Source: Actinomyces sp. 432
Lineage (GTDB): Bacteria > Actinomycetota > Actinomycetes > Actinomycetales > Actinomycetaceae
DNA length: 64,000 nucleotides
Assembly: GCF_009930875.1 (NCBI RefSeq)
Contig: NZ_CP025249.1
Coordinates: 1,860,001 to 1,924,000 of the forward strand
Reading direction: 5' to 3'
Shown here: piece after piece, positions 35,736 through 58,428 of the stretch
Numbering within the stretch: position 1 is the stretch's first letter
Layout of the letters: each line of letters starts with the position of its first letter
Program-made: the position numbers and the translations under genes
The notes under the pieces: generated by a model
Database searches by the model: none
The model's input: the letters and a program-made list of their open reading frames with translations, nothing else
What the model was told of the DNA's origin: nothing

Positions 35736-35804
35736 GCGTCATTTCCACCGGTTTCGACGCGTTACGAGTGCCGGTCTCGGCGTGTTACGAGTGCCGGTCT
35801 CGGT
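35736..35804 (-). repeat. 23-bp-period repeat array (three units) downstream of pnp
   Basis: Plus-strand units begin GCGTCA at 35736 (degenerate), GCGTTACGAGTGCCGGTC at 35759 and GTGTTACGAGTGCCGGTC at 35782, exactly 23 bp apart. The same unit, read in the sense of the upstream gene as GAGACCGGCACTYGTAACRC, occurs at 46331 and at 57494. Confidence 0.75.
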
Positions 35805-46021: not shown

Positions 46022-46155
46022 GGCGGTTCGTACCTTCGCGCGACGATACGTACCTTCCGGTCAACGATTCGTACTCTCCTGCGACGGTACGTACCTGTGA
46101 GTGCCGAACCGTCGCAAGAAAGTACGAATCGCCGGTGCAAAGGTACGAACCGTCG
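46022..46155 (+). repeat. 20/21-bp-phased dyad repeat, seven of eight units
   Basis: Left-arm units start at 46022 (GGCGGTTCGTACCTTC), 46042 (GACGATACGTACCTTC), 46063 (AACGATTCGTACTC) and 46083 (GACGGTACGTACC). Right-arm cores start at 46106 (within GTGCCGAACCGTCG), 46126 (AGTACGAATCGCC) and 46147 (GGTACGAACCGTCGG). Offsets 0, 20, 41, 61, 84, 104 and 125 give exact dyad symmetry about 46098.5. The eighth unit is unrecognisable. It lies between convergent rarD and infB. Confidence 0.8.
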
Positions 46156-46267
46156 GCCCCAGCGCATACGGCCCCGGACGCATGCTTGCCCCGCAGCACA
46201 CCGGAATCCAACACATGCGCATAGACAGCCCAGTCACTCTGGCCCACCCCGGCGCCCGGGTGCCAAA

Positions 46268-57265: not shown

Positions 57266-57423
57266 CGGCGACGCCCGCTATGAGTGCGCCAGACTCCTGG
57301 TGGCGGATCTGACGCGTCAACTCGAGCCCGAGCCACCCCTAGAGATCGATCCGGAGACCGGTATTCCGGCTCTTCCAGTTTGGGATGTGGTGGTTCGTCG
57401 GGTGGTGTGACGCGTATCTGGAG

Positions 57424-57471
57424 TGGAGGGTGCCTGGGTTGGAGGACGCCTAGGTTGGAGGGTGCCTGCAT
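57424..57471 (+). repeat. three 16-bp tandem units
   Basis: TGGAGGGTGCCTGGGT, TGGAGGACGCCTAGGT and TGGAGGGTGCCTGCAT follow one another without gaps (57424, 57440, 57456). No match elsewhere in the window was seen. Confidence 0.7.
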
Positions 57472-57493
57472 GGCTGGGCTCGGCGGGTTGGCC

Positions 57494-57585
57494 GCTGAGA
57501 CCGGCACTTGTAACACGCTGAGACCGGCACTTGTAACACGCTGAGACCGGCACTTGTAACACGCTGAGACCGGCACAAGTAACGC
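57494..57585 (+). repeat. 23-bp repeat array, four units
   Basis: Units beginning GCTGAGACCGGCACTTGTAA start at 57494, 57517, 57540 and 57563, exactly 23 bp apart. The first three are identical; the fourth ends CACAAGTAACGC. In sense relative to the upstream plus-strand gene it matches the repeats after pnp and infB. Confidence 0.85.
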
Positions 57586-57671
57586 ACCGAGGTAGGTAGA
57601 CGTTACCGGTGCCTAGTGTTTGAGGGCGTGTTGGCCTCGGGGTTCGTGTGTTGCCGTGACCGCGTGGGCGT

Positions 57672-57825
57672 GACGGTTCGTACCTTCGTGTCAGGGTTCG
57701 TATGTTCTGGTCGGCGATTCGTACCTTCTTGTGACGGTTCGGCACCTAGGGGTACGTACCGTCGTAGGAAGTGCCGAAGCGTTGATGCCAAGTGCCGAAC
57801 CGTCATCGGAAGTGCCGAACCGTCA
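57672..57825. repeat. complete 154-bp dyad element, eight units phased 20/21/20
   Basis: Left units start at 57672 (GACGGTTCGTACCTTC), 57692, 57713 (GGCGATTCGTACC) and 57733 (GACGGTTCGGCACC). Right cores start at 57756, 57776, 57797 and 57817 (the last two within AAGTGCCGAACCGTCA). Offsets 0, 20, 41, 61, 84, 104, 125, 145 are symmetric about 57748.5. Read in reverse, its units match those at 46022-46155 one by one, so it is an inverted copy of that element. Confidence 0.85.
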
Positions 57826-57895
57826 CCCCGGGGTACGCGGGCGCACACGCCAGACCAGCGCCCTGGCCGTCATGCCTGCACCCTGGGCGGTTATG

Positions 57896-57930
57896 TCTTG
57901 ACCCCGGGGGGTGTTGAGTAGGGGTCAAGA
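57896..57930. terminator. hairpin in the repeat island
   Basis: TCTTGACCCC (57896-57905) pairs with GGGGTCAAGA (57921-57930) around a 15-base loop. It could end transcripts from either side or be an operator; no gene touches it. Confidence 0.4.
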
Positions 57931-58030
57931 TCACCGGTGTGCGTTGTCGATGGTCGCGGTCCCGTTCCGGCGCCCAGATGCTCCCAACGGTCCTGACGAG
58001 TCGTCCCCGCGAGCCAACAACGGCCCGCCC

Positions 58031-58130
58031 GAGAACGACCTCACCCGCCTGAGAACGACGCTGGTTCAGTGAGTACGTGCTCGTACGTCCGAGAACGACC
58101 CTGGTTCGGCGAGAACGTCCTTATCAGCCC
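58031..58130 (+). repeat. 20-bp-period array, five units
   Basis: Units start with GAGAACG (or GAGTACG) at 58031, 58051, 58071, 58091 and 58111, exactly 20 bp apart; the best pair reads GAGAACGACGCTGGTTCAGT and GAGAACGACCCTGGTTCGGC. A degenerate unit (GAGCCAACAA) may precede at 58011. The family is unrelated in sequence to the other two. Confidence 0.75.
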
Positions 58131-58428
58131 CAGACGCTCTCGAACGTGGAGGGCGTGGGGATCACGCGGTCGTACTCGCCAGATCGGCACCCACCGACAA
58201 CAACCACCCGCACCCTCAAAACAGAAGAGCCCTTATCCGCGAACGTGTTATTTTCATCGGCATCATTGTTGGAACCTGAACGCTCTTGAGCATTGCTCGG
58301 TCACTAAGTGAAATGGCGCGCATGCTGCTGCATCAGGACGAGTCAAATAGATCGAGGCGCCAGCAGACTCGTTACCAGCGATGAGCCGCGGCTCCCGCGC
58401 AGAGACACACGCACGCGCTTGTTAGCGC

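Follow-up and report, generated by a model that had tools for sequence, protein, structure and literature searches.

A family of REP-like intergenic dyad repeats found across the genus Actinomyces is rather likely to be the two-fold symmetric target of a dedicated IS481-like transposase. The member at which the analysis started, an array of eight phased units, lies in a 64,000-nucleotide stretch of the genome of Actinomyces sp. 432 (the window; genome G000), where it is carried inside a larger mobile element with ISL3-type ends.

Geometry and distribution of the dyads

The window dyad consists of eight 13-bp units, four on the forward strand followed by four on the reverse strand, at offsets 0, 20, 41, 61, 79, 99, 120 and 140, which gives a spacing of 20/21/20 bp in each arm and 18 bp between the starts of the inner units (Table 1). 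The first-pass annotation of this DNA had described eight units with 20/21/20 spacing, an observation that is confirmed here; its offsets of the forward units stand, whereas those of the reverse units (84, 104, 125 and 145) were 5 bp too far, as would follow from the use of a shorter core, and the spacing itself is unchanged. The dyad had also been called exact, which is true of the layout but not of the letters, since 92 of the 153 bases equal the reverse complement. When all 153-mers of the window were scanned, the two most symmetric ones were a second dyad at 46022 (94) and the one at 57672 (92), against a mean of 44 and a maximum of 84 at the 63,237 positions outside both. A spaced pattern of four core hexamers, with up to 2 mismatches, had two matches in the window, at these same two dyads, and none in 100 dinucleotide-type shuffles of the window (6.4 million bases).

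Table 1. Features of the two dyads and of the enclosing mobile element, in window positions
Feature	Positions	Strand	Remarks
Non-autonomous ISL3-type mobile element, 864 bp, carrying the dyad	57368..58231	.	Inverted ends GGCTCTTCCAGTTTG / CAAAACAGAAGAGCC
Left terminal inverted repeat	57368..57382	+	1 mismatch to GGCTCTTCCGGTTTG
Second array: four 23-bp direct repeats CGCTGAGACCGGCACTTGTAACA, the fourth with 3 differences	57493..57584	+	Related repeats in G005 element copies
Eight-unit phased dyad	57672..57824	.	Feature reported by the first-pass annotation
Unit 1 GACGGTTCGTACC	57672..57684	+	
Unit 2 CAGGGTTCGTATG	57692..57704	+	
Unit 3 GGCGATTCGTACC	57713..57725	+	
Unit 4 GACGGTTCGGCAC, inner	57733..57745	+	
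15-bp centre GGCACCTAGGGGTAC between facing cores	57741..57755	.	Empty in the window dyad; in sister dyads, IS481-like insertions have duplicated the equivalent position
Unit 5 GACGGTACGTACC, inner	57751..57763	-	
Unit 6 AACGCTTCGGCAC	57771..57783	-	
Unit 7 GACGGTTCGGCAC	57792..57804	-	
Unit 8 GACGGTTCGGCAC	57812..57824	-	
Third array: degenerate 20-bp GAGAACG repeats	58031..58120	+	
Right terminal inverted repeat	58217..58231	-	2 mismatches to GGCTCTTCCGGTTTG
Second dyad of the family	46022..46173	.	L024; pattern, covariance model, symmetry scan

A BLAST search rendered 50 matches in the genome of origin, and matches in 5 of the 59 relatives searched, that genome being counted among them. A generic four-hexamer pattern (RCGNTTC type, fixed gaps, at most 2 mismatches) was found at 154 places in seven of 49 Actinomyces genomes (G000, 19; G014, 30; G030, 34; G005, 22; G064, 7; G012, 18; G066, 24) and at none in the remaining 42, and the reversed control pattern had no match in any of the 49. 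With a covariance model, for which at most 62 candidates per genome were scored, there were at least 45 matches in G000, both strands counted, and matches in at least 13 of the 49 genomes, six of these with only 1-4. When the centre distance was left free (74 to 87 bp), 79 bp was obtained in 74 of 77 scored placements, register-shifted duplicates included, and when the units were allowed to float by 5 bp to either side the inner six kept their expected offsets in 63 or more of the 64 dyads; the inner units are constant, and the outermost ones vary in number and decay. The 64 dyads had been gathered for their likeness to the element in the window, with scoring at fixed offsets; this choice has the least influence on the free centre distance and on the generic patterns. 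The proposal that further copies exist in the genome with conserved gaps, and that the layout recurs at other loci while the sequence drifts, is thus borne out by the 19 pattern copies in G000, by the placements above, and by the 154 generic matches together with the shorter forms with other letters found elsewhere.

These shorter forms have 2+2 units and a length of about 71-77 bp, with different units in the same geometry, and A. oris is among their carriers. The pattern GTTC, GTTC, 15 bp, GAAC, GAAC (at most 1 mismatch) matched 19 of 200 family genomes, a sample of the larger family that does not hold every genome of the genus; as classed from the matches listed, 14 of the 19 were dyad-bearing Actinomyces, in which the units were often different ones, and five had single look-alikes, the same number of genomes as was matched by the control pattern. 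Short-form copies numbered 30 in G003 (10 of them read), 6 in G004 and 3 in G025. The flanks seem unrelated between copies in G004, G025 and G067, and several G003 copies have some left flank in common; the 77-bp unit alone also matches elsewhere in G023 and G001.

With heuristic gene calls, 36 of 38 placeable dyads are intergenic, a further five being too close to the edge of their locus for placing. They lie in 17 convergent, 16 tandem and 3 divergent contexts, compared with 4, 10 and 4 for window gaps of at least 150 bp, so that the bias toward convergent gene ends that had been suspected is weak, orthologues having been kept in the count. No neighbour genes common to the G000 dyads were found among the best 25 rows of an all-against-all protein comparison, which were frames through repeats or IS. 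By eye, dyads seemed denser toward the ends of the G000, G005 and G030 contigs, perhaps the origin, but the same is seen for ISL3 copies in G005; this density is probably not dyad-specific, and an origin bias was rejected.

IS481-like insertions at the dyad centre

The genome of the window holds six full copies of a 1.46-kb element, each with one transposase (rve plus helix-turn-helix) of 431 residues. Its best NCBIfam family is transpos_IS481, at 200 bits and under the cut-off of 224, for which reason we call it IS481-like; the TGT..ACA ends and the integrase-core (rve) transposase are as in the IS481 family. Each of the six is inserted in a dyad, at the centre in five cases and one unit step off it in the sixth (L042), which points to a preference for the centre, not a requirement. 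Between copies of equal length there are no more than 3 differences in 1456 bp, whereas 170 bp of their dyad arms differ by 16-83 (15 pairs, better orientation), and the IS has therefore entered existing dyads independently. Fragments of the IS at contig ends adjoin dyad centres in eight of eight cases (six of six in G014, one of one in G066, and one of one, decayed, in G012), two G014 fragments with a common duplication being perhaps one insertion. A homologue of 61-62% identity in A. oris WE8B-23, G003 and G007 is inserted centrally in the local dyad version at all 5 loci, which are the A. oris/G003 locus and the sites of the four close copies of G007.

Exact 15-bp duplications flank seven of the 11 complete insertions (L038, L041, L042, L275, L276, L282, L287); L152 shows the duplication of L276 as seen on the other strand, and the two enter the count as one. 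The remaining four depart from this by a single mismatch (L037 and L040), by inversion of one copy (L039) or by a one-base gap (L285). In central insertions the duplication covers the 15 bp that separate the facing cores (in the commonest form, GACGGTTC and GAACCGTC), which places the staggered cuts at the inner edge of each of two inverted sites; at L275 the facing cores are 16 bp apart.

We read the repeat family as a symmetric target used by co-diverging transposases. Its working part would be the two inverted arms of phased units, about two helical turns apart and with a core that is usually (G/A)TTCG, around the 15-bp centre; the dedicated transposase would cut at the inner edges of the facing cores, insert, and duplicate the centre, and the IS would thereby come to rest in intergenic DNA, where its landing is presumably neutral. 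The units would be read by the transposase itself, not by a helper or a host protein. The position of the duplication suggests a two-fold symmetric complex that would hold both cores, and the phasing would allow cooperative binding, to which the outer units could add. The off-centre position of L042, the inverted duplication of L039 and the imperfect one of L285 speak against the dyad as a landing pad.

Most dyads are empty, with 19 uninterrupted by pattern versus 6 interrupted in G000. Among 16 genus genomes searched, a close homologue of the IS was found only in G003 and G007, and none in the dyad-bearing G004, G067, G010, G065, G026 and G011; another search of relatives rendered no match in G030 and only distant ones in G005 and G064. 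Sister IS481-like loci with transposases 31-37% identical (L043, L044, L132, L136, L137, L140) are not at dyads as read, and neither are L278, L283 and L289. At four of these loci (L043, L044, L278, L283) the element ends in repeated units about 25 bp long and has 15-bp duplications at unrelated targets.

In a tree of 37 IS481-like proteins, whose rows were chosen from more loci and leave out L276 and L137 for want of a clean frame, one starred group consists of the three dyad-targeting rows and another of 21 rows with tRNA or T-arm sequence at the right end, and 13 rows belong to neither. L154, from Brevibacterium sp. S111, groups next to the dyad-targeting clade and lies in a long palindrome with a 13-bp duplication. 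As counted by eye, 34 of 80 IS481-like loci (L152-L231) have a tRNA gene on the other strand, at a distance of 206-373 bp beyond the match to the transposase, and in the eight loci that were read a 15-16-bp duplication is directly followed by T-arm sequence. A broad IS481-like clade inserts at the 3' ends of tRNA genes; we found no description of IS481-like elements at tRNA ends in open-licence PMC papers.

The ISL3-type element around the window dyad

Comparison of near-identical copies in G005 and G030 shows the dyad to be part of a larger element, which has the ends GGCTCTTCCGGTTTGAGGGTGTG and is flanked by 8-bp duplications. At 28 loci both ISL3-type ends are present, and eight of these have exact 8-bp duplications (L064, L074, L076, L077, L080, L081, L083, L084); the 8-bp flanks of the window copy, GGTATTCC and CTTATCCG, do not match. 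In G005 (10 equal-score matches), in G066 and in others there is an autonomous member of the ISL3 family whose ends are similar and which likewise has 8-bp duplications; its ends have 2-3 mismatches to the motif in G005 and 0-1 in G066, and the ISL3 search of genomes found no match in G000, G012 or G014. The first-pass annotation had seen the dyad and missed both this enclosing element and the role as an insertion target, although its suggestion of REP/MITE-like behaviour is supported by the G005 and G030 copies, with their inverted ends and exact 8-bp duplications, and by the autonomous ISL3.

As in ISL3-family miniature elements, the ends and the 8-bp duplications are those of the autonomous ISL3 of the genus, but the dyad appears here as cargo, and many dyads have no such ends, including the second one in the window, around which none were found in the 3-kb locus L024. 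ISL3 as the owner of the dyad was rejected, since the autonomous copies in G005 lack the unit array and other dyads lack ISL3 ends. In the window's clade, then, the dyad also rides in a non-autonomous ISL3-type element, which the ISL3 transposase would move in trans. As to the other arrays of the element, 23-bp repeats with a GAGACCGGCACTTGTAAC core, four of which are in the dyad element, occur twice on the opposite strand at window positions 35761-35801, and degenerate 20-bp repeats similar to its GAGAACG repeats lie beside dyads at other loci.

Conservation, alternative readings and described repeat families

Orthologous dyads persist at four groups of loci (L002/L055/L059, L015/L092, L025/L063 and L004/L049/L051), and several species keep them without any IS, which is not explained by a pure landing pad. 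They are often, not always, better conserved than their surroundings, which leaves room for a role in the host. Dyad identity is 149/153 in L002/L055; in L049/L051 it is 133/153, versus 71/99 just outside, and there, as in L004/L051, the dyad is conserved above much of the surrounding element. In L002/L059, on the other hand, the dyad (121/153) does not beat the flank (124/149), because one dyad half has been replaced; half-switching is visible at L002/L055/L059. Indels inside orthologous dyads are few, and of about one unit (19, 19, 20 and 15 bp). A dyad at a gene end is kept in G003, G006, G065, G007 and G010, with altered letters and nearly the same spacing (one extra centre base in G065), and half-kept, interrupted by an insertion, in G027; at that locus it was not seen in G011, G026, G069, G061, G023 or G001. 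Its differences between species are symmetric, GTTC..GAAC versus GGTC..GACC.

It is possible therefore, albeit in our judgement unlikely, that the dyad is primarily a binding array of a conserved host protein, a regulator or nucleoid protein, which the IS481-like element exploits as a safe intergenic mark. The persistence at these loci, the conservation above the surrounding element with indels of unit size, and the symmetric changes would all fit such an array. It agrees less well with the patchy presence of the repeat, which lacks RCGNTTC-type matches in 42 of 49 genomes and was not seen at the gene end in six, with units that differ between species, and with the pair L002/L059; no candidate protein was found, and the layout could also be maintained by gene conversion among the copies.

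Two further observations concern single loci. At L025/L063 the 15-bp centre appears inverted between species with the arms unchanged, which suggests inversion or template switching at the facing cores. At one orthologous locus in G005, G030, G014 and G012 (L248, L249, L250, L092), two dyads enclose a DUF559-like gene, assigned by family score in G005 and G030 and by eye in G014 and G012, where the frame appears interrupted in G012; the enclosing gene pair resembles what we take to be folD and xthA. The same locus in G000 (L015) has one dyad and no DUF559-like gene, which would fit a deletion of the gene by recombination between dyads. A DUF559 endonuclease as homing partner was rejected, given this single locus in four genomes and the lone dyad in G000, and DUF559 matches are mostly not between dyads.

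A function as RNA or single-stranded DNA, be it a hairpin, a bidirectional terminator or a REPIN-like hairpin, is very unlikely. It draws on the short forms, of which those of G004 and G025 are near-perfect palindromes with fold z-scores of -9.6 and -14.5 (-3.0 to -5.4 in three others), and in 32 of 33 short dyads, which could be aligned, pairs covary (0.109 versus 0.038 when shuffled, 0 of 500), a signal that relatedness and arm-to-arm conversion can mimic. In the eight-unit form no covarying RNA pairs were found (50 of 64 dyads aligned), and standard pairs are fewer than in shuffles both in units (73.0 versus 76.7%) and in spacers (58.1 versus 62.5%) in 500 of 500 cases, so that the terminator or RNA hairpin proposed by the first-pass annotation is not supported there. 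Pairing of the long form is highest in register (73%, versus no more than 45.5% on sliding), which is expected of any dyad, and the 141-nt fold of the window dyad is somewhat better than its shuffles (z -2.7). Rfam 15 had no match at gathering score in six dyad loci, and no Y1 transposase of the RAYT type (Y1_Tnp, PF01797) was found in 17 dyad-bearing genomes with a search that was positive in 5 of 14 control genomes. Least probable of all, the dyad would be the joined ends of an undiscovered multi-unit-end IS, a miniature element with the outer units as tips, as the repeated end units of about 25 bp in IS481-like elements here and the common dyad with partly unrelated flanks at L015 and L092 might suggest; yet it is the outermost units that vary and decay, the paired whole dyads in four genomes bracket the DUF559-like locus and not a transposase, and the six half-dyad pairs examined in G000, with about 1.5 kb between the halves, were shown by alignment all to enclose the separate IS481-like element, so that the earlier view of these half-dyads as the ends of a parent IS was rejected.

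The reading of the dyad as a target of the IS481-like transposase places it beside known repeats. The statement that no described family has this layout holds for Rfam (the six loci) and for the literature searched (open-licence PMC papers), in which no phased dyad repeat was found. The family is akin in kind to IS-targeted REPs, with a geometry of its own, no RAYT and a 15-bp duplication. The part consulted of Tobes and Pareja 2006 (PMC1525189) presents REP repeats as short intergenic inverted repeats that are hot spots for specific IS elements; the dyads likewise are many, dispersed and intergenic inverted repeats targeted by a specific IS, but REP, REPIN and BIME sequences are built on one short hairpin, in contrast to phased units of 13-20 bp around a 15-bp centre, and RAYT-associated REPs and REPINs differ also by the Y1/RAYT gene that the 17 genomes lack. 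In Pseudomonas fluorescens SBW25, according to the excerpt seen of PMC11708052, an IS481-family element inserts into REP sequences with a 4-bp duplication. A fixed position inside a repeated palindrome is thus common to both cases; the duplication is of 4 bp within the REP there and of 15 bp, equal to the centre of a phased dyad, here, and beyond what that excerpt describes we find two diverged IS lineages, each using the local version of the dyad. The CGTC-tagged REPs have, in the portion consulted of PMC3733652, stems of 8-9 bp, loops of 4-5 bases and a list of five phyla without Actinobacteria; like the dyads, whose outer ends read GACG..CGTC, they are palindromic repeats without a dedicated transposase, but the 13-bp units and 15-bp centre fall outside those stem and loop sizes. 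Tn5053, which a passage of PMC11406308 lists as targeting plasmid resolution sites, and Tn7-like elements also choose a particular DNA target; the IS considered here is, by comparison with what that passage gives, a single-gene element with no separate targeting protein seen.

It can also be the case, although we advance it only tentatively, that phased dyads are kept as dedicated landing pads, with the spacing tuned to the 15-bp double cut of the transposase and the unit letters co-diverging with it, in a truce between host and IS under which insertions occur at harmless sites. If true, this would be a bacterial parallel to the homing of retrotransposons to safe sites. The dyad family gives a clear natural case of a repeat geometry that outlives its sequence, with two transposase lineages each following the local version of one target. 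The target choice of IS481-like elements becomes testable with simple DNA, the family offers a set of site-preferring transposases, and repeats of this kind met in genome scans may be targets, not regulators.
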